Shown one piece after another: positions 5,089 through 53,399 of a stretch of 64,000 nucleotides of DNA. Every line of letters begins with the position of its first letter. The first letter of the stretch is position 1. This stretch comes from Muricea muricata. Taxonomy: Eukaryota > Cnidaria > Anthozoa > Malacalcyonacea > Plexauridae. The stretch spans positions 4,402,001 through 4,466,000 of the forward strand of contig OY979721.1 of assembly GCA_963855995.1 (NCBI GenBank), in the 5' to 3' direction. A program made the translations under genes and the position numbers. Below the pieces are notes generated by a model, which was given only the letters and a program-made list of their open reading frames with translations, ran no database searches and had not been told where the DNA came from.

Positions 5089-6259
5089 CTGCAAAATAAG
5101 CAATGACTTCCAGCTACCTTTAACATGCAATACTTTTCCTATTATAAATAGAATTATGGTGAATTCTAGTAAAACAATAAATTGTAATAATAAATGTATT
5201 ATGTTACAATTTTTGTCTAATGTTCTGGCACCATAGGCATTTAGAAGATTGTACAAATCAAATTTAATGAACAAACAAACAGTAAATTTGAAATATAAAC
5301 AGCATGCAAACTTGCAAGGAACTTATTAATAATAGCAAATTAAAAGCCAAATATAACAATGTAGGCAAGACGGCCAAGACCTACATACATACATATGAAT
5401 GCTGGTGTTTTCTTGTTTATTTCTGAGTTCATTTTTCACAGATTTAACAAACGCACGATCGATTCTAGAAATTTGTAAAAAATTTCTCATAAAATGTTTA
5501 CAATTTTTGAATTTTGAATATAGGTACTTCCCCCTCGAACCCAGACCTCAGAACCGGATATGAAAGTCGAGATTACACGTGTAGTTAGTTTGTTTGTTTT
5601 GTCAGGTGGTTTTGATAATTTGATTAAGTGATAAAATATTGTGATTTTTTTCAGCGATCGACGGTTGATTGTTTGGGAAACTTTCAAATATGCAAATATG
5701 CAATGTTTGATATGCATCGCTGCGCGATTCTACGTTGAACTATTTGTGTAAACGGCTATTAAAATTTGTTTACGAATACTGTAATAGTGTTATTTTGGGA
5801 GTTTTCTGCCGTTAAAGCAACGTGATCTGAGTTTATTGAAACCGCTCACCGTTGCACAAAGACACTGCAAGACACGTTAGTGTACTGGCTTTTGTCAAAA
5901 GGTTATAGTCTGTGTCATGCTGCACACTGGTACGATATTTCAAGGTGATTTTTGTACGGTAAACATTGTGCTTTTACTTTCACCGGTTTCACAGAATACA
6001 AGACAATAGATCTTGTATAAATTCTTACAGGAACTTGAAGTTACTTTCATTTTGCGTACAGAACAAAGAGCCGTTGAAGGCTTTTATGTAAATCGCATTT
6101 GCTGAGGTAGATTACAGAACAGATACCATTGTACTGTGTTAAAGAGCAAAGTGCGTGTGTTAAGTGAAACATTGACTTGACAACACAGAAGTTTCAATAC
6201 TTTCATGCTCACAAACCATAACTATTTATCAAGGAGGATAAGCTTGTTTAAAACTCGAC
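5089..6259. promoter_or_regulatory. Divergent promoter region (unidentified gene / TYMP)
   Basis: This 1.2-kb interval separates the first visible minus-strand exon of the unidentified gene from the TYMP start codon. No coding exon was recognised, although the first exon of the minus-strand gene must lie here or be non-contiguous. I see no clear TATA box or CpG-dense core. The promoter assignment rests only on the head-to-head arrangement. Confidence 0.35.
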
Positions 6260-9200
6260 ATGGCATTCAATACACCAAGGATTATCGAAACTAAACGCGA
6301 TGGTGAAAAACTAACCAGCGACCAAATCAGCTACATAGTCAAAAACATTGCCGAGGAGAAATTGCCCCCTGTCCAGCTCGGAGCATTTTTGATGGCAATT
6401 TATCTCAAAGGCATGAGTACAGATGAGACCATTAGCCTCACTGAAGCAATGATAAGGCATGGCGAAACTTTAGAGTGGCCAGACGAGTGGAAGGATTTGG
6501 TGGTTGATAAGCATTCTACGGGTGGGGTTGGTGATAAAGTTAGCCTACCATTGGCTCCAGTGTTGGCTGCATTGGGGTTGAAAGTCCCCATGATTTCTGG
6601 TCGAGGACTGGGATTTACAGGTACGATTTAGCCATGTAACTAATAGATGATTAATCTAGACTATTAATAAGCCCTTAAGTGAGTTCTGAGAATCTCTTTA
6701 GTTTAAGATGTTAACCCATCTTGTACTATTTACTAGCAAACAGGCTCTCAAAGCTAGGTTTCACAACTATTATTGTACAGCAAATAAGTCATTTTCAAAG
6801 ATGCAATGTAATTTTATACTGTGGTAGTTAATGTAGTGTTAATGTACTCTGGATCTATATTTTGTCAGCTGCATTCAAATCAGTCCTTATTGATTGTAGA
6901 TTAGTGCATGGTAGATACATTGCTTCAGATACATGACTGTTGCAACCAAACAGCAGTGGCTAAATGATTCACTGGTTAATGAAAGTAAAAGTTTACAATT
7001 TGAAAGGAGCAATTGAACAAAAAGGAAAGTATACGCATGCAATATGCCTGGGCTTGCATGGTGCATGCCAGCACATGTTTCTAAGATGTAACACACCTAC
7101 TCTTAATAGGCTAAAAGTTATTTTAAAATTGGCACAGTTGTGGTTATTTGGACTTTACTGTATCATCTACACGATTGTGTAACTGATATGGTGTATAATT
7201 AATGTAGACACTTTCAAATTCAAATTAGCTGCTAACTATTGTGTTAATTTGATAGCCTGTCACAGTGCTTCAAATTGACGATTCGCAGAAACACAAGGTC
7301 TTGTACATGTAGATCTTGTACATTCATTTGTCATTTATGTTACAAAGCATTGAGAGCTGTCCAAATTACTGCAACAAGTTGTGGCTTATTAGAATTTTAG
7401 TGGGTCTACTTTTTTAGGCAGGAATAACAAAGAAAAATACTGACTGAGATGTAATGATTTTATAGTATTGACAATAAAATACTATTCTTTAGGTGGTACG
7501 TTGGATAAACTAGAGTCCATCCCTGGGTTCAACGTGAGCTTGACAACATCTGAAATCTGTGAAGCGGTAAAGAAGGTTGGCTGCTGTATTGTTGGACAAA
7601 CAAAGGAAATTGCGCCAGCCGACAAAGAGATGTATAAAGCACGGGATGTGACGGCGACTATCAGCTGCATTCCCTTGATTGTTGCCTCTATAATAGCCAA
7701 GAAGGCTGCTGGTAAGTTTGTGGCTTAGTAGTACACTACCCACAGGGTAGTATAGCATTTTGGTGTCAACTATTTATTTCAAAAGGGTAGCCAGAAGAAC
7801 TGGTATCTGTGAGGCCTGAAATAACTTAATTAATTTCAATATAGCTTGGTCGTTTGGTTATTTGATGAAGTGTTGTACGGCTTTCATGCTAAAGTTCATG
7901 AAAACATTAATTTTCATAATGGCTAATAGCAGACTGTATGTAGACGTGTGGATATTTATATGACAAAAAGCCTTCACCTCAAAATACCAGGCTAACATTA
8001 GGAGTAACACACTCATGTTCACATTTCCTCATTACCCTACTAGAATTTGATAGATGAATACAATTTTGTAGGTTCACTCCTGTGTGGGGTGTGACTCCCC
8101 CATCTTAACAGGATTGATATGGTGAGAATATGTACACTGTCCTGTAACTAAATATGAAGTACTTTTTTCTTGCAGAGAATCCAACAGCCTTAGTTCTTGA
8201 TGTAAAATGTGGCAGTGCAGCTTTTATGAAAAATGAAAAAGATGCCCGAAATCTAGCTCAAGGTTTGGCCAATACAGCAAGTGGTCTTGAAATTGCAACA
8301 ACTGCAGTGTTGACAAGGATGAGTGAGCCAATAGGAATGATGATAGGCAACTCTGTGGAGGTGATTGAGTCTATTCAATGTTTGCAGGGCAAAGCACCGA
8401 AAGATTTGGAAGAATTGATCTGTACCCAAGGTAATGGGCTGTGAGAAATGTTGTGAGAACTTACTGTATTCATGGTTTTGTCAGTAAGATACAGTCTGGG
8501 CCCAGGCACCATGTAGATTGGGGGAGGAGTAATCACGCACTTTAACTGGGAGCCAAACTGACAAGCTAATTAATAAAGCTTCACATTTACAGTAACTGGG
8601 AAATATTTCATTTTTAGCCCTTCCCCCTCTTCCATGCCCTCTCTTCTCTTCTCTATATAATATGCTTCAGGGGCCCAACTCTCTTTGAAGTCTTAGCCAG
8701 GTTTTCCAGGTAAAGCCAATATTAGGTGAGTTCTATCATAATATTTTGGTCATTAGTGATCAAAGGTAGCATACACTTGACATCATTGATTTCATATCAA
8801 GTGCATGTCTAATAAATAAACAGGTTGTTTTGTTGTGTTGCTAGACTAAGTGAGTCTACTGTAAATCAATACCCTGGGTTAGCACTAGATCTTTTCAAGC
8901 TTTCTAAAAAAATCTGTTGATAGGTATTTTGGATCAAACTTTAATATTTCTTTAAGTTGAACTTGTCCATATCTGTGATTTTATAGCTTGTAATGAGCAC
9001 TATTAAAAACCCAGTGGCTAGCAGGTAGCACTATTGAACCTTTGAACAACCTGCCTCAGATGATTTTGCTCTACACTGGGAAGGTTAGTTGTATATTATA
9101 TCAACACTCAGCTTGCATTTAAAACTAGCAATGTTCTTGATTATACAGGAGGAAATCTGCTGGCCTCGAAGGGCAAAGCAGCAAGCCCAGAAGAAGGCTA

Positions 9201-9657
9201 CAATATGGTGAAACAATCATTAGCCAATGGCACAGCTTTGAAGAAATTCCAAGAAATGTTGTTAGCCCAAAATGTTGCCCCAGACATTGCTGAAAAACTG
9301 TGCAACCCTGACACCAACCTCTGGGAGGTACTGCCTATTGGGAAGCTCAAAACAGAACTAACTGCAGATAGAGATGGTTCTGTTTCATCCATAAATGCTT
9401 TGGGAATTGCAAACGTGCTCACAGAACTTGGAGCAGGACGGTTAAAACCAGAGGATAAGATTAACCATGGGGTGGGGATGATTCTCGAAACCCGTAAAGG
9501 TGGGTGCTTAAAAAAGGGCCAGGTATGGGCAGTAGTTTACCATGCAGAAAAATTGAGCGACAGTCATTTGGCCATTTTAAATGGTGCATTAAAGATTGAA
9601 GATGGTGATGAAAAGCCAATTGAGTCAAGAATTATTGGTATAATTAAACCCAATTGA
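6260..9657 (+). CDS. TYMP: Thymidine phosphorylase
   Basis: Four exons (6260-6620, 7493-7711, 8176-8430, 9149-9657) join with GT/AG sites, all introns in phase 1, to a 447-aa protein, the usual length for the bacterial-type DeoA/TYMP family. The enzyme cleaves thymidine with phosphate to thymine and 2-deoxyribose-1-phosphate in pyrimidine salvage. Visible family features are an N-terminal helical domain, the phosphate-binding KHSTGGVGDKVSLPLAP (about residues 85-101) and the pyrimidine-nucleoside phosphorylase signature SGRGLGFTGGTLDKLE split by intron 1. Later blocks include LDVKCGSAAFMK and an active-site-like VLTRMSEPIG. The ATG at 6260 is the first in frame and gives a typical N-terminus, with no targeting peptide, so a cytosolic location is likely. 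A polyadenylation signal AATAAA is at 9821-9826. No frameshift or missing core motif. Confidence 0.97.
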
Positions 9658-16642: not shown

Positions 16643-19600
16643 TTAAAAGTCATCTTCACGCGTCACTTCTAAGAATACATCATATGCTTCTCTGTTGCAG
16701 CTGCCATCCGGAGTAAAAATGTACTTGAGAAAAGTACCATCGACACAAATCGCTGAAAACACAAAGTTAAAATGGTGAGTCTGTATGTCTATATATCAAG
16801 CGCAACTGCATGAACCATGACGGTGAACGATTTAGAACTGATACAGCTATTTACAACGAGTGATGATCCTTACTGCACCTTTTGAAAAGAATAAATAAAT
16901 GAAGTTAATTTAGTTCAGGTTTCCTCCTAAAGTAACACTAGATCAATAAGAGATTATCCTTACTGGACCTCTAGGAAGAACAGTTTAGAACTGATGGAGC
17001 TATCTAGTATAAATAAAGTTAGTTTAGTTTAGGGTTTCTCCTGTAGTGACACTGGATCAATAAGAGATAATCCTTACTGGATCTCTAGGAAGAACAGCTT
17101 AGAACTGATGGAGCTGTCCAGTATAAATGAAATTTAGTTTAATTTAGGTCTATTCAAGTTTAAGCGGGAAAGATTTCCCGCAAAACAACGCTAGCCATTA
17201 CGTACCTGTAACAGAATTGCTAGGACCAAATGCACATATACACGGACATTCTGACGGTACAGTAAAGTTAGCCAAAGCCCACTGTGACTCTACATATTGA
17301 CCAAGGAAACTCATCTTTGATAATCTAAGGAAAGTAAGAATGTGGAATATAATTTGGTTTGTTAGCAAATCATACCACACTATACTACCGTATACCATAC
17401 CACACCATACTATATCACAACATACTATACCACACCATACTACAAAATACCACAACAACACCATTAAAACCTTACCAAACCACATCACATCATACTATAC
17501 CATACCAAGCCTATCCAGTAGATCATACTATAGCATACCACACCATAGCTATACCATACTATACCATACTAATGACAGCACACCCAAACTATACCACACT
17601 ATGACAAACCACACCACACCTCCACCGTACCATACTACACAACAGCATACTGTACCACTTCATACCATATACCATATCATTCCTATACCATACCACATCA
17701 CATCACACAACACCCATCATACCACACTACACCATATCATAGCATACCACACCCTAGCATATTATAATATACGTACGTGGATCGTTTATTGAGAGATGTA
17801 TCCCTCAGTGCAAATATATGCACGGTTCCCTTGTCACTTGACGCGCACAGATACGATGAATCATGACTAAAGTTAATACTGAAAAAAAGGCAAAAATCAA
17901 TATATCACACGCCAATTTCCGAGTTATGTAACGCCTAATCGTCATTAGATTACTGCCGAAGGACCTAGTTGATAATAATTTTTTCTCAACTGTTCCCGGC
18001 TTGAATTTCACGATGTGTATGATATCCACCCTTTAGAACTCTTTAGATGTCATTCAACTTCGTGTGAAGTGCTACAATTCATTTACTGAGCTCTTACCAG
18101 TATAGCGTTGCATGATCAGCTCCTCTCCTTAGCTCTACAACTAACTGCTTACTCTGCGTGTCAAACACGCGAATCAGTGTGCCCTACCACAAAACGGAAA
18201 TTATTTTGTCACTTATTAAATAAATGAAGTACACAAGAAGATACAGATAAAAACTTTATACTGGACAGCTCTATCAGTTCTAAACTGTTCTTTCTAGAGG
18301 TCCAGTAAGAATCATCTCTTGTTGATCCATAGGCGGCCCAATTCAGTGTGTAGTTTCATATAGAGATCAGTAGCGAGCGGTAGCGTATCTTATATATGTA
18401 AATAATACGGGTTATATCGTTTTGTCACGCGCACGAAATGTATATATACGTCATTTATAATATAGATCAATGACGTCATTTGTACAGCATATATGCCATA
18501 CGTGTTATAGACGTATTGGTGTTATAGACGTTGTGGCGTTATTGGTGTTATGGGCGTTATTGGTGTTATGGACGTTATTGGTGTTATTGGTGTTATAGAC
18601 GTTATGGCGTTATTGGTGTTATAGACGTTATTGTGTTATAGACTTTATGGCGTTATTGGTGTTATAGACGTTACAGGTGTTATAGGCGTTATGGCATTAT
18701 TGGTGTTATGGACGTTATTGGTGTTATAGACGTTATTGGTGTTATAGACGTTATTGGTGTTATAGACGTTATGGCGTTATTGGTGTTATAGACGTTATGG
18801 CGTTATTGGTGTTATAGACGTTATGGCGTTATTGGTGTTATAGACGTTATGGCGTTATTAGTGTTATGGACGTTATGGCGTTATAGACGTTATGGCGTTT
18901 TTGGTGTTATGGACGTTATTGGTGTTATAGACGTTATTGCTGTTATAGACGTTATGGCGTTATTGGTGTTATAGACGTTATTGGTGTTATGGACGTTATG
19001 GCGCTATAGACGTTATGGCATTTTTGGTGTTATGGACGTTATTGGTGTTATAGACGTTATTAGTGTTATGGACGTTATGGCGTTATAGACCTTATGGCGT
19101 TATTGGTGTTATGGACGTTATTGGTGTTACAGACGTTATGGCGTTATAGACGTTATGGCGTTATTAGTGTTATAGACGTTATATGGCGTTATAGACGTTA
19201 TTGGTGTTATAAACGTTATGGCGTTATTGGTGTTATGGACGTTATTGGTGTTATAGACGTTATAGCGTTATTAGTGTTATGGACGTTATGGCGTTATAGA
19301 CGTTATTGATGTTATAGTTATATTGGTGTTAGAACTAGATGCAGCAAAGAACGCCGACGCCTTTGCCGAAATGGTCCAGTGTTTGGACGACCGAAGCCTG
19401 TCTCCGATTATTCGAGAAGCGAAAGATAAGGGGCGAAAAGCGTTGAAAGTACTTCGAGAGCATTATCAAGGAAATAGTAAAAAGTGACTTTCTTCGAAAA
19501 GGCGAAAACGAGACCACAACGGACTATATTATAAGAGCTGAAACTGCTGCAACAGCCCTCAAAACCGCCGAGGAAGTAATAAGTGATGGGTTGCTGATTG

Positions 19601-22600
19601 CTATGGTTCTGAAGGGTTTGCCACGAAATTATAAAACATTTTCAACCGTTGTTATACAAAGAGCAAATGACCTTCAGTGAATTCAAGACCGCTCTTCGAA
19701 ACTACGAAGAGAATGAAAAGAGCTGTAACCCACGCGACAATCAAGATAATGTGATGTTCTCAAAGCAAAGATTCACTGGGAAATGTTTCAAATGCGACAA
19801 GCAAGGACACGAAAGTTCTGAATGCCGGATGAAGACAGAAAAATGGTGTGTAAAATGTAGAAGCAAGACACACAATACGAAGGACTGCAGGGCCAACAAG
19901 AAAGCTTTTGAGGTTTTGAGGGCTGTTGCAGCAGTTTCAGCTCTTATAATATAGTCCGTTGTGGTCTCGTTTTCGCCTTTTCGCAGCAACGTGAATTCGG
20001 TGTAAAGCGCAATCACTCTCCTTTTTACAATTTCCTTGATAATGCTCTCGAAGTAATTTCAACGCCTTTCACCCCTTATTTTTCGCTTGTCGAATAATCA
20101 GAGACAGGCTTCGGTCGTCCAAACACTAGACCAATTCGGCAAAGCGGCGTTCTTTGCCGCATCTAGCTCTAACACCAGTATAACTATAACACCAATAACG
20201 TCTATAACACCAATAACGTCCATAACACTAATAATGCCATAACGTCTATAACACCAATAACGTCCATAACACCAATAACGTCATAACGTTTATAACACCA
20301 ATAACGTCTATAACGCCATAACGCCTATAACACTAATAACGCTATAACGTCTATAACGCCATAACGTCTATAACACCAATAACGTCCATAACATGTACAC
20401 CAATAACGCCTATAACACCTAAAACGCCATAACGTCTATATAACGCTATAACACCAATAACGTCTATAACACCAATAACGTCTATAACACCAATAACGTC
20501 TATAACACCAATAACGTCTATAACACCAATAACGTCCATAACGTCTATAACACCAATAACGTCCATAACACCAATAACGCCATAGCTATGAGCTTCAGTA
20601 ATTAAGAAATAATTTGACACAAAATATGGGCTACGTTTTTTTTTATACACCCTGTATACTATATACCTCAGTTCTGAATTATAGCGTTTCTATTGTGTCC
20701 GTGGAATTAGTTCTGCCTGAGTGTTCACGAAATAATGATAAAAAAACAATATATTTGAATTGGAGAACAGGCACATAAAGGTTCAGTAAGGGTCATCTCT
20801 TATTGATCCAGCAGCACTTGAGTTTCAGAAAGAACCGAAATATGTTGCAATAATGTAAATATCGATTTCTAAATGTGTCTGATGATTTATACACTTGCCG
20901 TAATTCAGCCTCCTGACTGCCATGTGGAGCCTTAGTAAATCTATCTACAATTATCTATTATTCCAAACCCTAAACATGATTTACAAACAATTGCTGTACA
21001 TCAAATAAAAAAATATTTAAATCAGTCACCTTATCAGAGGCTGTAGCAACCATAGTGCCTTGCTGATTCATAGCAAGACAAGCTATTTCACCTTGATGTG
21101 CACTTATCATGACAGGTGATGATGAAACACCAGGCTGCACAACTGAAAGATCCTAAATAAGAATGAAAAATTGTGATGGAGTTGTAGTACTTTGGAAGTT
21201 TGAACATGTTGTAATATCTTGCGTTAGAAAAAAGGTAATATTGGCACCCTATTGTTTTACCCTATTCAGACTAGCGCTTTCAAATGCAAGTTGCACACCA
21301 AGTGTTTCCAAAGTGTCTCTTGTATAAAGTGTAGTTAAATAGTCAAATGTTGGTTAAAAATAGGGGGTGATCACCTTCAATAACAGTAAAAATTAGGCTG
21401 ATTGAATTGTGAAACAGTTGAACCCCAGATGATCTAGTCTTTTTAAGAGCACCTTTGGTCAACATGAATTACCTACTGACGCACCCTACAGTAGCTATGC
21501 ACACTAAAATTTAATATTGTTTCATTTGTAATAGACTGTATATAGTCATGAAAGCATTAAGCTCAGTTTTCTACCATAATACACAAAAATCAAAATGCAA
21601 TATTCCTAAGAAATGTTTAGGTGATGACATACACTGATTTCAATTGCCCCACATTTCTTTGCAGGAAATACAATCAATGATTTATCTTGATTTGGACAAA
21701 CTTCACCCAAGCCTAGTAATATAAAAAGTACACATTTACACAACATTATCTTCTTGATGTACAAACTGCTTAAGTTTTCAGTGCATTTTAACTGCAGAAA
21801 ATCTTCAATACCTTTTGGATTTTCTCGTGTATCAAAGAACAAAATTGTTTCCGGATTATTTGGAAATGAGCAAATATAAATTCTTGTTCTTAGGATGAAA
21901 AATATCCTTTGAAAAATATGAAATACCAATGATTATGAAACATAATACTACTTGGGGCAAAAAACACAGAATTGAAAGCATAAATAATCAATGACAAATC
22001 TTTTTTACATACATATCTTTGCGTAGTCTCACACCAAGTACTGGTATATTGAACTTAAACTCTAGTACAAACTTGCTGAGTTTATCATCCCAAATAAAAA
22101 CTATAAAAGTTACAAATATATTAGGTAAGTTTTCTATAATTATATTTTAATCACCTCGTATTACCATTATTCACTTAAGACATAAAACTTCAGATTGTGT
22201 CTTAAGGTAGTGATTGACTTATAGTTTCGACTTCAGATTATATTTAAACTGTAGATGACACAAATTTTTTGGTTGTTCAGGTTGTTGGGCAGGAAATTTT
22301 GCAAGCCCTGTCTGTGACACTGGCCTGCAGATCAACATCTGCAACATATCCAGTTAATAACATAACTGGAAAGCAAAATCATACTAAATTGTTACCTTTA
22401 TTGTTTGAATATGTTCCCATGCCATTTCCTATAATTGCTACCAAATTACTTCGATGTAACATTTCAACATGAGACACACCACCACTGCCATCTAACTCTA
22501 TTTAGATTAAAAACAAGCAATTTCATATATTTGCTCACTGCAGTACAGTTACATGCATTATTCATAGCACTGGCTTCCCAAGTTTGATTTGGAAAATTGG

Positions 22601-31300: not shown

Positions 31301-32017
31301 ATAGGCACAGACAGTAATCGTTTCAAAGGCAAAATAGAGTCTTGAAGAATAAACTAAAAGCAGTATGTCCTTCGCTGTGGTAAAATTTAACGTTATATAG
31401 TGTTTTTCTAGTGAATTCTAGTCTTACTCCATGTCTAAAAAGTAAAAACGGGGAAGACTGCATGGGTCTTATCACCAAACAATCCAATAAACTGGAGTGA
31501 ACGTTTACATGCATGACACAATATGGACTGGATATTTGTTGAATTAGTCGTGTAAGTGTCTAGATTTTGTATATGGATTTTTATAATTATGGCCAGTGTG
31601 GCTTTTCGTGGAATTTCATTTTGTTATTTTAGCACTACAGTATGGAACACAAATACGGATTTTTCTAAACCCGATGCCTAACTCTACAAAGGCATTGCTT
31701 TAATGACCAAATCCACATCACATCTCTTACAATTTGAAAAACATAAACAAACTAGCGTGAAAACAAGCCTGCTGATGTTAAGAATGGGCTTGTATTGTTT
31801 GAGCCATTCCTTGCATGCCAGGTCAACTCGGGCATGCAAAACTTGCAACATCGTAAAAACGTAAATGACATGTGACAAAGTCATCGTAATCTATTTCAAA
31901 ATCATATGTTGTAGCATTCTATCGATATTCTGAGATGCTCAAATTTTAGATTATCGTTTTAAAGATGACGGTTTTCAAAGTGAAAGCACCCCCCATGGAA
32001 ACTCATTCAAACTGATC
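28398..32017. other. Intronic/intergenic stretch with zinc-finger relic and repeats
   Basis: Contains the C2H2 zinc-finger fragment at 28440-28905 (-) and, at about 30955-31195, a degenerate repeat of the CAAGTTG-rich family. The ORF at 30638-31087 (-) overlaps that repeat and has no recognisable domain, so I do not call it a gene. A CCATCTTGG motif is at 30410. I found no exon that would continue the membrane-protein gene. Confidence 0.5.
28440..28905 (-). pseudogene. Eroded C2H2 zinc-finger gene fragment
   Basis: Across minus-strand frames one can read VECHICAREF, then a THTGEKSYECDICERKFS linker-plus-finger, then a degraded finger CVCDVCGKAHKCVHKNH. The TGEK linker and CX2C...H spacing are those of Krueppel-type fingers, but stops and frameshifts interrupt them. 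A related fragment in the opposite orientation is at 38440-38885. Probably a decayed gene copy or part of a dispersed element. Confidence 0.6.
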
Positions 32018-34579
32018 ATGCAAATTTTACCCGACTTCTATAGTTCTTTAAAATATATTTTACAATCGCATTCTTTCAAGTACGTATACACGGATCGAAA
32101 TGGCTCCGAAGACAAAAAAAAGAACCAAACAACATCTTCTCAATCGCAAAAAAACAAATTCTCAATCGCAAAAAACATCTTCTCAATCGCAATGCTGTCG
32201 CTTGTTGTGTGTGGGGTTATTGCAGTATTTGCCAATCAACTGCTAGACGAAGGAAAACAAAGATTGGTAAATTATGTGTTTGACAAACTGTATCCAGGTT
32301 TTTTGAACATGATGAAAGGCTCGGGCTGTGCAATGCACTTGAGAGAAAGACCACATGGAAAGTACATAGCGTGGCGAGAAGAAGATATAGAAAAATTAAA
32401 AAAAGAGTTTGACAGTTTTGAAGAGTCTGAAGAGGTTGTAAACGTCGTGTACCTAGTCGGGGTGCCTGGTTCTGGAAAGACAGAGCTGGCTAGACAATTC
32501 GGAAAGTCCATGTATTGCAAACGAAATGGGGCTCCTGTTGTCGTGACACTGAATATTGAGAATCTACATCAGCTTAAAATGACTTTAGGCTGGTCTATAT
32601 GGCATATAGAAGAAGCATCACAACAACATAGCAAAGATATCGAGAGTCTGCTAAATACCGAAGTTGATGTTCTCTTTCATCAGCTTAAAGAATTACTGAA
32701 GAAACGGCCTCGGTGGCTGCTTATCATAGATAACGTCAGAGTTCCAAACGTTATACAGAAAGACATGTACCAGCAACTTCCAATCCCAGGACCAAATGAG
32801 CGATGGGGAACCGGAAAGATGCTTATAACAGCCCAAAGCTCTCTAGTCCGAGATAGAAGTTATGGCAGGTATTTTAGAACCTTACAAAATACAGGACTAA
32901 CCCTTCCCGACGCCACGAACTTCCTGCGTGAACTGGTAAATGAAAGCAGCCGCTGTGATGCAACTGTTATCAACAAAATTGTCGAGAAGCTGGAGCTTTT
33001 ACCTCTATCTATCGTGGCAGCTAGCGAGAGCATTCGAAGCGAGATGAAAACCAGCACAACTTACCGTTGTGGAAACTGCTTATCAGAGTATTCTGCAGCG
33101 TTTAGCATTTTATCTGCGCAAAATAGAACTGTAGCTGGTTATAACCTCTCCCTGTTGGCTGCTTTGAATTTAACTATTATGAATACGCTGGAAGTACATT
33201 CAAAGGTCTATCACGATTTTATTGCTTTGATTGGGTTTACTACGGTCGACCGAAGAACTATAAGAGTAGAGCACGTTAAAGGATACCTAACGAAGATGGG
33301 TCACACTCGTGAACAGTGTGAGAAAATATTGGACTTTCCGTTAGTTTATTTCTCGGAAACGAAGCAAGTTTTTCGCGTTCATCAAGTTGTCAGTCACGCA
33401 TTCAGGGAAGCAGTAAACCAAATCAACACTGACGAGGCATTGCAACGGACTCTGCAGAGTATATCCCATTACTTTGCTGTCCACCACAAGTCAGATTTCC
33501 GTTCTAGCTATGAAATTGAACATCATTACGTAGACTTATTGCAAAGCTTGCCAACTCGCTGTACATACCTAGATACTTGTCTAATTGCACCTTATTCTGA
33601 AGACCTCGGTAGTGTTATTACTGTTCTTTTTTCGGCATATCCTCACTATTCGCGATACCATGAGAAACCCGACTGCTCTAAATTAGATACGTTTTTGGAC
33701 CGGCTTCGTTCTGCACCAGTGTATCGTAATCGGATATTAGTGCAGTTGGAATTTCGTGGCTACCAAGCTTTGTCTATATGCTATAGTAAATCAGACAGAG
33801 TAGATGGATCTTATTTGGCAGCCACAATTGCTTTACGCTTAATTAAAGAAGTCGCACCAGCCGAATTGCACACAATACCCGCGTCCTGGTTTCTATTAAA
33901 CCTAAACAGTTTCCCCGGCGGAGAATCACTTTATAATCATGTCACCTTCTTTCTACTATTTCCACATTATTTGAAATTTCCTTATAATACTGACGAGATT
34001 CGCCGTAAGCTGTGCTTATCGTTAAATGAAATCGCCCGTATTCTATTTCCAAGACAAGCAGAAAGCGTACGACAGTATTGCAATCCAGATTTCAACGACG
34101 TCGAACGAAACAGGGAATTAATTGATCAAGATTCAAGTTATAGAGATTTTTTCTATAGTAAGATTAATCGCTATAGACCGTTCATAAGGAAGCGCCATAC
34201 CTCGTTGACAACAAATATTTGGTTTGCTTCAGAGAACGTTACTCCGTATGGTAAATGTACTGCTGAAAATAAGGTGTCGTTCTCAGGCAGTTTGTACATA
34301 GGAGCTCTTAAATTTTGTGTTGGTTACGGTGAGCGTGTCGACAGAAAAACACTTGACATGACAGTACACAAGTATAGATCAGCCTTGGTTTTCTTTGAGT
34401 GGGTAGACAAAAAGCATATGCAATTGAATTGGCGAAATAGCAGTATGAATTGTCAATCCATAAAAGATGAGTTGATGACTGAACTGCAAAAACCAAGTGT
34501 AATGAAAACGAGCATGAAATCTTTTCATGAGAAACTTTTGTTGTTTGCTGACAATTACTGTGCTTCCTTCACAAAATAA
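32018..34579 (+). CDS. Intronless STAND/NB-ARC-type P-loop ATPase with N-terminal membrane segment
   Basis: An uninterrupted 853-codon ORF in a region with no other long ORFs. Order of features: a polar Ser/Gln/Lys-rich N-terminus with repeated SQSQKN/FSIAKN blocks, a hydrophobic span (about residues 54-72, IAMLSLVVCGVIAVFA), Walker A GVPGSGKT (about 148-155), Walker B/kinase-2 RWLLIIDNV (about 232-240), a RNBS-B-like MLITAQS (about 268) and a GLPL-like LELLPLSIVAAS (about 324-335). Then come a winged-helix-like stretch and about 450 helical residues without LRR, WD40 or obvious TPR repeats. These motifs in this order define the NB-ARC/AP-ATPase group of STAND NTPases, which switch by nucleotide-driven oligomerisation in innate immunity and cell death. 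Function here is inferred. The start is the first ATG; the membrane anchor is unusual for the group. It lies in the gap between two exon blocks of the membrane-protein gene. It could be an intron-less cnidarian NLR-like gene or a retrocopy. Confidence 0.8.
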   Translation: MQILPDFYSSLKYILQSHSFKYVYTDRNGSEDKKKNQTTSSQSQKNKFSIAKNIFSIAMLSLVVCGVIAVFANQLLDEGKQRLVNYVFDKLYPGFLNMMKGSGCAMHLRERPHGKYIAWREEDIEKLKKEFDSFEESEEVVNVVYLVGVPGSGKTELARQFGKSMYCKRNGAPVVVTLNIENLHQLKMTLGWSIWHIEEASQQHSKDIESLLNTEVDVLFHQLKELLKKRPRWLLIIDNVRVPNVIQKDMYQQLPIPGPNERWGTGKMLITAQSSLVRDRSYGRYFRTLQNTGLTLPDATNFLRELVNESSRCDATVINKIVEKLELLPLSIVAASESIRSEMKTSTTYRCGNCLSEYSAAFSILSAQNRTVAGYNLSLLAALNLTIMNTLEVHSKVYHDFIALIGFTTVDRRTIRVEHVKGYLTKMGHTREQCEKILDFPLVYFSETKQVFRVHQVVSHAFREAVNQINTDEALQRTLQSISHYFAVHHKSDFRSSYEIEHHYVDLLQSLPTRCTYLDTCLIAPYSEDLGSVITVLFSAYPHYSRYHEKPDCSKLDTFLDRLRSAPVYRNRILVQLEFRGYQALSICYSKSDRVDGSYLAATIALRLIKEVAPAELHTIPASWFLLNLNSFPGGESLYNHVTFFLLFPHYLKFPYNTDEIRRKLCLSLNEIARILFPRQAESVRQYCNPDFNDVERNRELIDQDSSYRDFFYSKINRYRPFIRKRHTSLTTNIWFASENVTPYGKCTAENKVSFSGSLYIGALKFCVGYGERVDRKTLDMTVHKYRSALVFFEWVDKKHMQLNWRNSSMNCQSIKDELMTELQKPSVMKTSMKSFHEKLLLFADNYCASFTK

Positions 34580-34941
34580 ACGTGACGGAACTTCATATAA
34601 TATTTCACAAGTGGTATATAAGTATAATGAACTTGTATCGCACGGGATCGTACTCCTCTAGTACTAAAGTATTAATCGACGAGGTTCTCCAAGCTACAGG
34701 TCTACAAAGCGAAGAGACAAAAGAAGTAACAGAGATTCTAAAAGAAATTATAGATGCCACCATACAGGATGAAAGAAAAGGCGCATATTCTTTTTTTGAT
34801 AACATTTCCCTTCTTTTTATATGATTAAAAATTACGCGAAAACTTTTATGGTCTCCTTTGAAAGAGACTCCAAAACATTATATAGAAGTTTATTACAGAA
34901 TTTTTATATCTGCCTTATTTCGGGAAATATTTTCATATGGA

Positions 34942-46306: not shown

Positions 46307-47769
46307 GTGCAAAATACCTCAAAAACTTACCACTACAGTCTGTTTCATCCAAAGGGAATCTTCAGGTGGTAGACAAATTTCGAAAATGTGCGAGCTTCTT
46401 TTATGCTCAAGGCGGAAACGTGGGCGCGTGGGTGGTTGAATAGCATGCATTCCTTTCTTTGTTTAGGTTGTTTACCTGAAATCTGCTTTTGTGTTGGCAG
46501 GCCGAAACTATTTCCGATCTTTTGTTGAGCAAGCAATTGTTTTTTTCTTTCAAAATACTGATTTTTTCCTCCAAACATAAATTACATCTTTTGGATCCTC
46601 CCGTGTAAGAAATAGACTTTTTTATTATGGACCATTTTATGGTGAAATCTGTTTTCTTTTGCTTTAAGTGCCAAACGTGTTTCGAAAGTTCCGTCTCATT
46701 CGAATATTTTTTGTGTGTGAAAGATTTGATATGATTCCTGTATCGCTCTTTGAATGTGTTTGAGGTCATGCCAATGTAGTGCTTTGTGTCCTGTGTGTTG
46801 CCTGTCAAAATTGTTGCTTTGTATACAGTGTCCTTACTCATGCACTTGTTCTGCAATGGGCATGTGTGCTTGTTCCTACAGTTACAGTTCTCTGTGCTAA
46901 TGTCTTGTGGTTGGCTTTTCCTAATTATGCGTGTGTTGTGACTTGTGATAATTGACTTAACGTTGTTCATGCAGCTGTAACTGACCTTAATTGTGTTCCT
47001 ATTGAAAATCTTGTGTAACTTGTTGCCTATTGGAAAGTGCGTGTCTACAAGCTTGAGGAAACTGCGTGCGATGTTTGTCTTGACATTTTTGCTAAATGGA
47101 GGGTTAAACCAAATGATGTTGCGTTGCCTGTTCCTGCGTGGTTGCTGTGTTACATGTGGCATGTATTCCAGCTTGTGGCTGAAGTTGCTATGTCCTAGTG
47201 CGTTTTGATATGTTTGTACTGCATCGTCAAATACTTGTTTGTCAGATGACAGCGTTGAAATGCGCTTGTTGATAGATGCTGGAAGTTGCCTTAAGATGCT
47301 GGGTGGGTGGTTAGAGTGCTTGTGTATGTATAACGGATCGTCATTGGGCTTCCTATAAGGTTTATATTTTCCGGTAGAAAGGTCGAATGTTACGTCTAGA
47401 AATTTTACCACGTGTAAATTTGATTCTGCTGTTATTTTTAGACCAAAAAAGTCTATTTCTTACACGGGAGGATCCAAAAGATGTAATTTATGTTTGGAGG
47501 AAAAAATCAGTATTTTGAAAGAAAAAAACAATTGCTTGCTCAACAAAAGATCGGAAATAGTTTCGGCCTGCCAACACAAAAGCAGATTTCAGGTAAACAA
47601 CCTAAACAAAGAAAGGAATGCATGCTATTCAACCACCCACGCGCCCACGTTTCCGCCTTGAGCATAAAAGAAGCTCGCACATTTTCGAAATTTGTCTACC
47701 ACCTGAAGATTCCCTTTGGATGAAACAGACTGTAGTGGTAAGTTTTTGAGGTATTTTGCACAATTATAC
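46300..47769 (-). mobile_element. Penelope-like element fragment with inverted 3' duplication
   Basis: A minus-strand ORF (46407-47411, 334 aa as read) matches the C-terminal half of Penelope-like retroelement polyproteins: LDVTFDLSTGKYKPYRKPND, SNHPPSILRQLPASI, RQRNIIWFNPPFS, a Cys-rich NCNCRNKHTCPLQNKC, and a GIY-YIG endonuclease part (HYIGMTSNTFKERYRNHIK ... LCLEEKISILKEKNN). The RT core is missing. The last ~315 bp (46300-46620) reappear as an almost identical reverse complement at 47447-47769, so the same 77-aa frame is readable on both strands. Tandem and inverted partial copies are a known habit of this class. Confidence 0.88.
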
Positions 47770-49278: not shown

Positions 49279-52200
49279 CTAAACGTCTTGTATTTTATGC
49301 CACTTCGCAATGGGCCGGCGGGGATTGTTCATCATCTCCGTCCAGTGATGGAGTGACGCTCCAGTAGACCTATAGCTCAAAGTCACTTGTCCAATCGGTT
49401 CATTCTGCGTGATCCTATCGTAATCCATAACGATGAAATTAAAACTGGTGTCTCGAAGTTTCTCTACCGTGACGTTGAAAATGAACGATTCGTTCCATAC
49501 CGGGTCTCTGTTTCGCTTCTTGATCGTTGTCTTCTTCTTTTCAATGCGTTTATTTGCTTGCATAAAGTAAATTTTCACGTACGGATCTGGAGGAGTAAGT
49601 TTATATCAGTTTCAAAACGTACAATCATTACTCTGTACAGCCAGAAACTCCACAGACTTTGATGCAACTGTAAGTTGTGGATTTTACAGGCTTGATGCAA
49701 GTTTATCACCAAGTTCATACCAGCTTGGCTTCATCTGACTTGATGTAAGTTGATGCTTGCAGACGTGCCGCATTGTTGAAACGACTTGCATAAAAAGTCT
49801 TGACAAACAACTTGCATCAGACCTGCTGTCATCAAGTTAGAGCTAGCGATGCCAATGCACACTGATACCGGCTTGATGACTGCAAGGCGTCATGCCTGCA
49901 GCAGACTTGCTGCATCTTTCAAAGACTTCGTGTCACATCAGGAAGGTTGCGTTGTAATTTAGAGACCTTAAAATTGACGTTTAAAATTTTGCTTCAAACC
50001 TCAAGTGGTCACGTATCTGTCGTTTAAGTCATGTGAAAAAATACTTTAATCTTAAAAGCTCTTGAGGTCTGTATATTAGAGCGTTCTTTATATTGATGTT
50101 TACAGGCTAACCGTAGGCACTTTCTTTGTAATAATGGTAATAATATCATCAATTATAAAATATTTGAAAGATAGAGTAATCAAAAGGATTTAAAATGCTA
50201 TCCTAAGGCACTTTGTATGGTCTGAGACCACTGTCAGTATATGTTTAGTCGCAAAAAACACACAACCAGTTCAAAGGAGATAAAAACAGCAATGCTTTGC
50301 TGCCAACATATTGTTCAGTGTTGTCAGCATCGGCAGTGTGAATAATATAGAATTACATGAGATTATGAATATATATAAGCTAGTTAGTATGTAGTACACA
50401 ACAGGACGATACAAACAGCGGGACAAAACAGACACAAAAAAAAACCCAGCAAATTATAGAAGGTTGAGCGGAATTGAGCTTCCCTGCACGTTAAGAGAGG
50501 GTTTGAGCTTGAATATGAGAAGGCTTTCGTAAATCATTAATTCACAAGTGTCGAAGCAAGAAGAGAGAATTTCGAAATCGTCAAAGTTGCCAGAGTGACA
50601 TGTAGACTCCTCTACACGCATCTTCTCTTTCTTTCCTTTTAAGGATAAACTGCCCAAGTTTATGAGAACTGGTGTTGTATAGTTATTTAAGTATCGATGC
50701 TGTTCCGCGTCGTATGTGGGGCAAACCACGCGCCATTTACACACCAGAGTATCAGAACCCCTGTTTGTATCGTCCTGTTGTGTACTATTCTTTACTCTCT
50801 TATCCTTCGTCATCCTTAACGCATTTTGATATGGCGAGTAAATGGTAGTAACACAATTAAAGGAAGTTAATTCTGCCGCTTGAATGGCGATAACAATATT
50901 TCGTCAAGGTTTTTAATTATGGTATTGGATGACCCGTTCCACCCTTGCGCTGCCCAAGTGGCACTTGCTGTTTCCCGTAACCGTTAATGTAAATATCTTT
51001 ATTGTAAGTGCTTTGACGTACGTTTGATAAAGACCTTTCAAAAGCTCTCGTAACTTCTGTACTTTAATAAGCATTTCGAATATTTAGCATATGTCACTTG
51101 ACTTAAGCAACGGCCTGGCAAATTTAACTGGGATTGCTGTTTACAACTTGGTGTATTCGCGGTTTAGTCTAGAAATTGTTTTTTTTTTAATTTTGTGGCA
51201 ATCGATGTCGGCTAATTTCTAGAGTGTAAATGTGTAGTAATGACAGTGACGATTTTCAATATGTGACCGTGTTATAAGAATCCTAATTAAATCTTACCAG
51301 TTTTTCCAGTGATATCCATTGCTTTAAGTCTAGCTGCTTTCATGACTAGAATATTAATTCTGTTCTTGGTTGGTTGATAACACATTGATAACAATAAGTC
51401 GCCAAGGTATTCCTAAAGAAAATATAAAAAAAATATTCTAGTGTATACATGTGTACTGTGAATGTATAATTCACCTGACATAATTGTGTGATTGGATTAA
51501 CCTTGATTCCTGATTAAATTGACTACAATCATGGGCAGAATATATGATTAAATCGCAAGTCTTTGTAGTAATCCGCCCAAAGTGGATTAGTTAAATCAGC
51601 CATACAAGATTGAGCTTAAACTTGGCAGGAACGGCCGCATATATTAAAATTTAACCCATAGTTTATGATCCTGCCAAAATCCAATGCACAAATCCCATTG
51701 TTCTAGTGGTGACTAGCTCGAATCTTAATCCCATTTTCTATATTTTTTTTCTGATAAATTCCTGCTCCAGTGAATAAAATCCCATCCAAAGATAGCAACT
51801 TTTAGCTTCCATTTTACCTGGGTTTCTGGCAAAGTTTTTTCCTCGAATCAGTTTTTTTTTGTAAAGATGATTGACTTTAGGTGAACTGATTTACCTCGAG
51901 CTTGTTACAAATCGACAGCAAGTTGTTCCAAACTTGCTGGCGACTCGCACGGGACAAGCGTTGCGAACACAACTTGTTGATGTCTTGTTGACAGACTTGC
52001 TACGAAATTTTTACGTGTGTAATGGCTGCAAATGATTAAACCGCTGATTGGCTTTAAGAAGATTACGTTCCAAACTATTTAATTCAAGATCGATTTTTTG
52101 GTGGCCGTTTTATGGTCCCAAAAAGTCTCTGAAAAGCGCTGCATTTTATCCTCGTTCGATTAATTACAAATTCAACTTTTTTGCAACCCTCGTGACTGGT

Positions 52201-53118
52201 GAAACGAGAAAAAAACTCATCAACTTCCATCAACGATCACGGAGTCGATAAGATTACGTGATCTATGCGGGTGAGGACTACTGCCCTCGCTAATTTCCAC
52301 CATCCTCGTTTGACTAGAGCTTTAGGTGAATTTACTTACCGTTTTAGAAGAAGGCTGCAATTCCTTGCTCAAAACAATGGGTTCAGGTCCCAAATTCAGG
52401 TTCTCCAAAGACAACCTCACATCGCCAATAGGATCATTTCTTGAAAACCTATCATAATCCAACACTTGTAGGCATAACGTCCTTTGCATCAGCTTATTAT
52501 AGGGGAAACCTTCGAACATAAAATACTCATTCCAAACTGGATTTAAATTCTTTCTCTTAACTCTCGTCTCCATTTTGTGTTTCTTGTCCGGTAACAAGCA
52601 TATCTTCACAAACGGGTCGCTTGTACCGCTAAAGTCCTTGGCGGGTAGCTTGGTAGCTTTCATAATCTTCAGTCCTAGCGTCATAGATTGTGAATCGTAC
52701 TTCAACGAAAAAAATATTTGCCCCAAATACTCCTTGCGGGTTGGGTCTGGCAATGCGGGTTCGGGCGGAATGATAACGTCACTTGAAGAGTGTTTCTCAG
52801 GTTGAATCGCCAATACATCCACTCCAACTTCCGGAGGACTTGGAAATCGAATCGTCCTTCTTCCATGCCCGGGGGAGGCCATGTGTGAAAGGCTGTCATC
52901 GGAGGATGAACGACTCGCAGATGATAGGTGGGAACCAATCTGGCGTTTGGGTGTGTCGTATTTGAGGCTGTCTACCACGCTTTCCTCGTAACCTTCGTTG
53001 TTTCCACTTGATTTTCCAAAAAGTTTCCGACACCAGCCACATAGTGTTAGGACGCTCACTAACGAGACAGCACTTGCAAACAGAACGATAACATGTTCCG
53101 CTTCAAGCACTCCATTGC
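49279..53118 (-). CDS. SYT7: Synaptotagmin-7-like protein, 3' three exons (5' incomplete)
   Basis: Minus-strand exons 52340-53118, 51298-51412 and 49279-49586 join in phase (1, 0, 1) to about 399 aa ending ...AKWHKIQDV. Order: a transmembrane span ([20 protein letters not shown]), a Ser-rich linker, C2A and C2B. C2A ([48 protein letters not shown]) is the synaptotagmin-7 type. C2B has [28 protein letters not shown] and [13 protein letters not shown]. Ca2+-binding aspartates are present in both loops of each domain; in C2B loop 3 the last ligand is Glu (NEP) in place of Asp. Synaptotagmin-7 is a high-affinity Ca2+ sensor for exocytosis and lysosome fusion. The first exon here starts at an AG acceptor (GCTAG before 53118) in phase 1 with no ATG, so at least one 5' exon lies upstream and was not found. 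Confidence 0.94.
49665..49935. repeat. CAAGTTGATG-type degenerate repeat in SYT7 intron
   Basis: Repeated words such as GGCTTGATGCAAGTTTATCA, CTTGATGTAAGTTGATGC and CTGCAGCAGACTTGCTGCAT, the same family as 30955-31195 and 45840-46145. Confidence 0.6.
50454..50813 (-). pseudogene. Penelope-like/GIY-YIG retroelement C-terminal fragment
   Basis: A minus-strand ORF of 119 codons ends [10 protein letters not shown]...[20 protein letters not shown] and SSIPLNLL, the conserved end of the GIY-YIG domain of Penelope-like elements (ESLxIxKLKPSLN, then SSIPL). It lies in the intron between the two C2B exons of the synaptotagmin gene. The start is arbitrary and the RT is absent, so it is a dead fragment. 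Confidence 0.7.
51893..52034 (-). repeat. CAAGTTGT-rich repeat, inverted copy
   Basis: Reverse complement of about 44900-45045 with few differences over some 140 bp, in the SYT7 intron. Confidence 0.75.
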
Positions 53119-53399
53119 CTAGCAATTATACAAGAATACATTTTAGGGTATCAAATTAAACTCACTACTCTGGTTAGGGTTGTACCATTGCTCTCGCATC
53201 TTAGTAAAACGAGCTCAATTTGCTGCTAGCGGCCATTTTGTCTAGGACATCATGATAATTTTTTTTGAAAAAGGAATCCTTGATACTTTACTTTGACTAT
53301 TATGTCTTTGTTATTGTTCACAATCTGTCTTATTTTGTCATCTGCTAAAAATAATGGCAATGCTTTGTTTGCTTCAATTACACCGCGATACCATACATA

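Follow-up and report, generated by a model that had tools for sequence, protein, structure and literature searches.

NB-ARC modules work as switches under nucleotide control and form oligomers once activated, as established for APAF-1 and the plant resistosomes. Here we describe an octocoral gene whose product carries a predicted NB-ARC ATPase and appears to be membrane-anchored near its N-terminus. It lies in a stretch of 64,000 nucleotides from Muricea muricata (GenBank assembly GCA_963855995.1, contig OY979721.1, positions 4,402,001 to 4,466,000 of the forward strand), called the window below. The window protein has its NB-ARC core in common with the anthozoan NB-ARC/tetratricopeptide repeat (TPR) proteins of Acropora and Porites (PMC10236652, PMC4083563), and differs from them in an added hydrophobic span and in having no recognisable effector or TPR. 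Coral NB-ARC proteins mostly carry TPRs and include HEPN domains among the NACHT/NB-ARC set (PMC10236652), HEPN-NACHT proteins are reported from cnidarians (PMC8260672), and the TPR- and HEPN-like relatives of the window gene in its own genome resemble this expanded anthozoan kind (PMC10236652, PMC4083563). The accessible text of the same two papers describes the anthozoan receptors as cytosolic or intracellular, with no mention of a span beside NB-ARC (PMC10236652, PMC4083563).

Membrane-associated relatives are on record outside the cnidarians. The sea cucumber proteins AjNLRC4 and AjNLR-new (PMC13133943, PMC8699970) are nucleotide-binding immune receptors that have a span, as the window protein does, but they carry NACHT rather than NB-ARC, contain immunoglobulin (Ig) domains, belong to another phylum and have a demonstrated function (PMC13133943). 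The AjNLRC4-type combination of Ig, NACHT and transmembrane segment is absent here, with no Ig domain found and NACHT at 14.9 bits, below its own cut-off of 26.7. Both orientations have been claimed for these membrane NACHT receptors (PMC13133943). Another animal case of a STAND NTPase in a membrane protein is an expanded family in Crassostrea virginica, in which an extracellular domain, a transmembrane helix, DED and TRADD-N are followed by variable domains, STAND NTPases among them (PMC8195603); DED and TRADD-N were not found in the window protein. Membrane STAND proteins, bNACHT42 among them, are described from bacteria (PMC13133943), and a plant paper matches the phrase "NLRs with transmembrane" (PMC8463517). 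APAF-1 and the plant NRC and MLA proteins belong to the same NB-ARC ATPase family by profile, whereas the window protein adds a span and shows no CARD, coiled-coil, WD40 or leucine-rich repeat (LRR). Its best NCBIfam match is the TPR protein of the bacterial FxSxx-COOH system (NF040586; best stretch residues 223–481, E 2e-10), of which it is not a member, scoring 39.8 bits against a cut-off of 300, and in which no TPR was detected. A literature search found no cnidarian transmembrane span adjoining NB-ARC in the accessible portions of the papers, which included PMC10236652, PMC8260672, PMC6321704, PMC4083563 and PMC12909245. The accessible methods of one of these apply TMHMM to Toll-like receptors and C-type lectins, so that spans in NLRs may have been overlooked there (PMC8260672). 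The novelty is modest: a span beside NB-ARC may be new in cnidarians, and membrane STAND proteins are already known from sea cucumber, oyster and bacteria.

A predicted NB-ARC ATPase in one long reading frame

The gene and the landmarks of its ATPase are as follows.

32018..34579, + strand: NB-ARC coding sequence, 853 codons, stop included in the coordinates (open reading frame, Pfam, codon score)
32378..33058, + strand: NB-ARC domain, residues 121–347 (Pfam PF00931, 8.3e-11)
32459..32482, + strand: Walker A, GVPGSGKT, residues 148–155 (motif position; relatives' alignment)
32714..32734, + strand: Walker B, WLLIIDN, residues 233–239 (motif position; relatives' alignment)
32816..32839, + strand: sensor-1/RNBS-B-like, KMLITAQS, residues 267–274 (motif position; relatives' alignment)
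32996..33016, + strand: GLPL-like, LLPLSIV, residues 327–333 (motif position; relatives' alignment)
33371..33391, + strand: MHD-like, FRVHQVV, residues 452–458, aligned with HQVV, HQVI or HRVV of the relatives (relatives' alignment)

The Pfam NB-ARC model matches the window protein at E 8.3e-11 with 42.1 bits, well above its cut-off of 23.5. The original prediction of an NB-ARC/STAND ATPase therefore holds at the sequence level; among the three profiles it had named, NB-ARC passes its cut-off, while NACHT and AAA_16 (26.7 bits) fall below theirs. The Walker A, Walker B, RNBS-B-like and GLPL-like motifs that it had placed in NB-ARC order are joined by an MHD-like stretch, and all five follow the canonical order (residues 148, 233, 267, 327 and 452), the last three in variant form. 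We take these stretches to be the motifs named, by their customary definitions. Across the window protein and seven relatives, 23 alignment columns are invariant, including G148, G153, K154 and D238. A profile built from these eight sequences (44 distinct sequences matched at E ≤0.01) matches APAF-1 (3sfz) at 5.6e-6 over the ATPase part, and over the same part NRC1 (7.6e-5), NRC3 (8.1e-5) and MLA13 (6.2e-4). Assignment of the window protein to the NB-ARC (AP-ATPase) clade of STAND ATPases is thus well supported as a prediction from sequence. In an anti-phage defence library the best match was AbiO (0.002 over residues 142–228), which is uninformative. No confirmed relative emerged from virus contigs or from bacterial and archaeal genomes, which is weak evidence because these scans used one short P-loop pattern.

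The open reading frame (ORF) is uninterrupted from the ATG at 32018 to the TAA at 34579 on the + strand (853 aa), within a stop-to-stop frame of 31934–34579 that is the only one in the window longer than 350 codons. At the stop-codon frequency of the window itself, 881 open codons have a chance probability of about 2e-24. Scored with a codon model whose training set was 37 other P-loop ORFs from the same genome, the ORF reaches 0.090 bits per codon in frame, compared with a background mean of -0.037 (s.d. 0.029) and above the background maximum of 0.065 over 237 overlapping windows, in keeping with the unbroken 853-codon frame first reported. The codon signal is absent 5′ of the ATG (-0.01 in the 150-nt window covering 31934–32017), where a splice acceptor, and hence a 5′ intron, may lie. 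In the genome searched (G000; 453 Mb, 74 contigs), the DNA of 31934–34850 has one match, itself, and the nearest protein match is 36% identical over residues 110–340 of the window protein; the gene is therefore not a repeat element. The widespread near-identical copies that would mark a transposon-borne frame were not found.

A putative N-terminal transmembrane span

Two features lie ahead of the ATPase.

32177..32233, + strand: putative transmembrane span, residues 54–72, IFSIAMLSLVVCGVIAVFA (Kyte-Doolittle hydropathy; shuffles; relatives' layout)
32127..32192, + strand: 21-bp tandem repeat, three copies, two reading frames (Tandem Repeats Finder score 104)

The window protein appears to be membrane-anchored near its N-terminus, judging by hydropathy. 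Residues 54–72 have a mean Kyte-Doolittle value of 2.70. Shuffling the first 141 residues 5000 times never gave so high a value, and shuffling the whole protein 5000 times did so in 18 cases. The span follows an N-terminal tail of 53 residues and ends 76 residues ahead of the P-loop. Together with a like layout in diverged relatives (see below), this sustains the N-terminal hydrophobic span of the original prediction. The "repeated SQSQKN-type residues" described beside it are a different matter: SQSQKN is present once, in the first copy of the 21-bp repeat (SQSQKNK), and the repeat shifts the frame, so that copies 2 and 3 read FSIAKNI and FSIAM. What repeats here, beside the span, is therefore the DNA and not a peptide motif.

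A C-terminal region without recognised domains

33458..34576, + strand: C-terminal region, residues 481–853, without recognised domain (Pfam, genome search, relatives' comparison)

In a genome search the last 374 residues recover their own locus alone, the runner-up having E 0.077. No phmmer match was obtained between the C-terminal region and the C-terminal parts of six relatives, and hhalign aligned 16 columns (E 0.18), those at the edge near the MHD-like stretch; a diverged TPR array is accordingly unsupported, and a slight resemblance to TPRs noted by eye is given no weight. These comparisons and the Pfam search agree with the earlier description of a C-terminal half without recognisable sensor repeats, and Pfam likewise returned no known effector domain, as had been stated. 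An upstream HEPN exon was considered and set aside, the HEPN-like query from the relative L016 having matched the window locus over the ATPase alone in the genome search.

Relatives with a span ahead of the ATPase

Relatives were drawn from four genome searches, the lists of which are lower bounds. In all, 39 loci were fetched (17+20+2), and 16 of the 41 NB-ARC matches from one search lie outside this set. The loci yielded 38 ORFs that carry the P-loop pattern and run to 180 codons or more, making 39 with the window ORF. When the best 19-mer located 25–130 residues ahead of the P-loop was scored, seven of the 39 (window included) reached at least 1.71, the next highest value being 1.32. These seven are the window ORF, two tandem ORFs on contig C12 (L001), the cluster L014, L016 and L022 on C2, and L043 on C3. 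The distance from span to P-loop is 53–64 residues in the first L001 ORF, L014, L016, L022 and L043 (76 in the window protein). In the second C12 ORF (L001:3875-4963) the scored stretch lies at the very start and is signal-peptide-like, and a second stretch at residues 51–69 scores 1.52. The span-less count may err, since L002, L003, L004 and L011, counted as span-less, have their P-loop at residue 44–58 of the open frame and may have N-termini in other exons.

Protein matches connect the window protein directly to the C12 ORFs (1.5e-22 and 8.5e-22), L014 (2.9e-7) and L016 (1.1e-5), and L022 and L043 are linked to it through protein matches of L001 or L016. By sequence, the five span-bearing ORFs that do not pass the NB-ARC cut-off are kin to the window protein and are classed as predicted NB-ARC-like STAND ATPases. 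The N-terminus of L016 resembles HEPN_Swt1 at 5.5e-5, its 23.9 bits falling short of the cut-off of 27.5, with further matches in L022 (0.04) and L013 (0.0082). For L014 itself no HEPN match was obtained; it is 58% identical to L016 over residues 37–534, and L022 is 73% identical to L016 over 44–534. A HEPN-like region thus precedes the span in three of the seven span-bearing ORFs, in L014 by homology. TPRs follow the ATPase in L002, L003, L004, L011, L013, L016, L022 and L043, three of which bear the span. The C2 cluster (L014, L016, L022) at 48.95–49.03 Mb combines a HEPN-like N-terminus, span and NB-ARC-like ATPase, with TPRs in two of its members, and a broken further copy lies at C2 49.031 Mb. 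Elsewhere, the NB-ARC/TPR ORFs L003:2053-4425 and L004:2635-5115 have hydrophobic C-terminal ends, possible tail anchors by sequence.

A single-frame gene had seemed unusual in a neighbourhood of split genes. The relatives do not bear this out: with the window ORF counted and L015 left out, 30 of 38 P-loop ORFs run for 700 codons or more without leaving their frame. Long single coding exons are therefore common among them, although the share may be inflated because a six-frame search favours long frames.

Phylogenetic placement

A first tree was built from 37 ATPase regions (L015 and L024 dropped; midpoint root for drawing only), and a second additionally omitted L023, L042 and L043. The window protein falls on the side of the tree that holds the HEPN/TPR relatives (98/98 with 20 rows; 100/100 with 18 rows in the second tree) and groups with the C12 tandem pair (99/91 and 99/99, respectively). 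Span-bearing rows make up 7 of 20 on that side and 0 of 17 on the other (Fisher p 0.009, a statistic that ignores relatedness). The end branch of the window protein measures 1.44–1.48 changes per site, and the intact frame and motifs kept over such a branch argue for constraint. A single origin of the span was rejected under the tree model for six rows, with long branches in play.

Weighing the evidence

On the reading that we favour, and judge somewhat probable, the gene product is an NLR-like STAND ATPase that is tethered to a membrane and belongs to the anthozoan NB-ARC/TPR kind, with neither an effector nor sensor repeats that can be recognised. Several observations weigh against it. Pfam finds in the window protein no effector domain, no TPR and no LRR, WD40 or ANK repeat family, and the single-sequence AlphaFold model is unusable (mean predicted local distance difference test score 37.3); the C-terminal region is helical solely in this unreliable model. 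The best matches of the eight-sequence profile are kinesin light chains over TPR columns, presumably due to the TPRs of the relatives, and it also matches the general AAA proteins ClpC and NSF. Coding score is weak at the N-terminus (0.06–0.13 bits per codon over the first ~100 codons) and falls close to zero in several 150-nt stretches further on, such as 33001–33150, 33901–34050 and 34101–34250. Only two of the seven span-bearing ORFs, the window ORF and L001:2103-3047, pass the Pfam NB-ARC cut-off: L001:3875-4963 reaches 20.0 bits against 23.5, L014, L016 and L022 have no NB-ARC among the matches listed and show sub-cut-off AAA-type matches only, and L043 has none among the best 25 of its 32 matches. 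The span-bearing rows are not one clade, forcing six of them together costing 24.1 log-likelihood units (approximately unbiased test, p 0.0014). The layout has therefore arisen or disappeared repeatedly; in both trees long branches come together, as the tool warned.

The anchor itself is open to other readings. An ordinary cytosolic NB-ARC protein, started at Met98 or Met99 or with the hydrophobic stretch buried in its fold, would account for the further in-frame methionines (59, 98 and 99 are those that follow Met1), for the weak N-terminal coding score, for a 21-bp repeat read in two frames within the N-terminal region, and for the 32 of 39 P-loop ORFs that have no such span; we nevertheless consider it unlikely, given a hydropathy unmatched in the N-terminal shuffles and a similarly placed span in six further ORFs, all of them diverged and the closely grouping C12 pair among them. 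An ATPase of an organelle membrane, for instance the mitochondrial one, that serves housekeeping or cell death and is no immune receptor is in our view rather unlikely. In its favour, APAF-1 is a STAND ATPase that acts downstream of mitochondria, and the N-terminus of L042, a distant relative, resembles a presequence by eye and precedes a weak span (0.85). No presequence is obvious by eye in the window protein, however, and L042 stands far from it in the tree. If the protein is anchored, the ATPase could also face the non-cytosolic side. Such an orientation has a published precedent (PMC13133943), and the flanks of the span are more positive N-terminally in the window protein (+3 before, 0 after), L016 (+2/-1), L022 (+2/0) and L043 (+2/+1), which by the positive-inside rule would put the ATPase on that side and so counts against the favoured reading as well. 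L014 (+1/+2) and L001:2103-3047 (+1/+1) lack this excess, however, and glycosylation sequons after the span are not enriched, with 6 observed and 5.3 expected in the window protein and z above 2 in one of eight proteins tested (L016). The short N-terminal tail of the window protein has two sequons against 0.6 expected, although the tails of L014 and L016 have none. The lack of enrichment after the span and the excess in the tail favour a cytosolic ATPase, and an extracellular one was rejected on the sequon counts as quite improbable.

Decay offers an account of the missing domains: a former NB-ARC/TPR gene, having lost its TPRs and effector, would be heading towards a pseudogene. The C-terminal residues without a relative in the genome, the long end branch and a weakly coding-like, out-of-phase frame after the stop are all consistent with this, yet 853 stop-free codons on an end branch of ~1.4–1.5 changes per site, the retained nucleotide-binding motifs and a mean codon score above every background window make it very improbable. 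A transposon-borne ORF would fit the repeats and the gag-like fragment (by eye) seen elsewhere in the window; its probability is negligible, as the DNA search returned the locus alone, the next protein match is 36% identical and Pfam found no transposon domain. A transposon origin was ruled out on that single DNA match.

Genomic surroundings and other features

Two minor features border the coding sequence.

31934..32017, + strand: in-frame open stretch ahead of the first ATG, probable 5′ untranslated region (stop-to-stop ORF, codon score)
34552..34824, + strand: open frame of 90 codons that overlaps the stop and continues past it, out of phase with the gene (ORF list, codon score)

The second of these has a weakly coding-like codon score and no Pfam match, and is perhaps a shifted or spliced tail of the NB-ARC gene, or a chance frame. 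The flanking genes, named from their Pfam domain matches, are a thymidine-phosphorylase-like gene on the + strand, in pieces at 6242–6628 (Glycos_trans_3N) and 9064–9654 (PYNP_C), and a synaptotagmin-like gene on the - strand, with C2 domains at 49282–49605 and 52325–53125. Both lie in pieces, in agreement with the statement that the recognised neighbours are split. The nearest coding pieces (~9654 and ~49282) come from two different genes, so nesting of the NB-ARC gene between the exons of one gene, as had been proposed, gains no support from them; as far as tested, it is intergenic between two converging multi-exon genes. In the ~40 kb between them, 15 of the 254 ORFs of at least 48 codons were scanned, with no Pfam match.

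Elsewhere in the window, at 18500–20590, a fragment with two CCHC zinc-knuckle-like motifs and no Pfam match (19613–19951) is bracketed by a pair of minisatellite arrays, which by eye consist of GTTATAGACGTTATTGGT-like units and lie in opposite orientations. A 350-codon frame at 46407–47459 on the - strand also lacks a Pfam match and is retroelement-like by eye. Outside the window, L042:854-1630 is a 258-codon P-loop ATPase frame, whose weaker span lies 48 residues ahead of the P-loop and whose presequence-like N-terminus (by eye) makes it possibly a mitochondrial relative. Contig C74 (19,292 bases) carries cox1 and other mitochondrial frames (by eye), a frame of 987 codons that matches MutS I, III and V as well as HNH, and a single tRNA, for Met (ARAGORN). 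The mitochondrial mutS gene is a marker of Octocorallia (PMC3166940). A second cox1-like match with one stop (L019, C1:38414782-38416095), on the 124-Mb contig C1, is probably a nuclear copy of mitochondrial DNA.

Proposed mechanism and implications

The membrane-tethered STAND ATPase that we favour would consist of a 53-residue tail, one transmembrane span, a linker, the NB-ARC domain with a winged-helix switch ending in the MHD-like stretch, and a C-terminus of its own. That C-terminal region, probably helical, could be the sensor or regulatory part. At rest the protein would be held inactive with ADP; a signal at the C-terminal region would lead to nucleotide exchange and then to oligomerisation. 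Its output may be a clustering of spans and tails that recruits partners or perturbs the membrane, a proposal made because no effector domain was seen. We infer membrane insertion, the compartment, the winged-helix domain, nucleotide switching, oligomerisation, sensing and a role in defence or cell death from the sequence and its family. The "little-described animal immune ATPase" of the original prediction is accordingly plausible as a variant, its immune role being drawn from the family alone and the anthozoan NB-ARC/TPR group being known already.

The layout with a span before the ATPase, recurrent in distant relatives, may represent a little-described kind of coral sensor. More tentatively, and with considerable doubt, this octocoral could possess a repertoire of membrane-tethered NB-ARC-like STAND receptors with the span ~50–75 residues before the ATPase, including proteins of HEPN-like, transmembrane, ATPase and TPR order (L016, L022), of which the window gene would be a stripped member, with span and switch retained and a C-terminus of its own, and which would signal by membrane clustering. 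The doubt stems from the five of seven span-bearing ORFs that fail to reach the Pfam NB-ARC cut-off and from HEPN matches that fall short of their own. Ire1's KEN domain has been treated together with HEPN proteins, which also include C6orf70 of the endoplasmic reticulum membrane (PMC3710099). If the repertoire exists, L016 and L022 would tie a nucleotide switch to a candidate RNase at, or across, a single membrane, in a loosely IRE1-like manner. Sessile marine animals would then also place NLR-like switches at membranes, where the usual picture is a cytosolic one, and there would be a testable route from sensing to a membrane-localised output without a death-fold effector.

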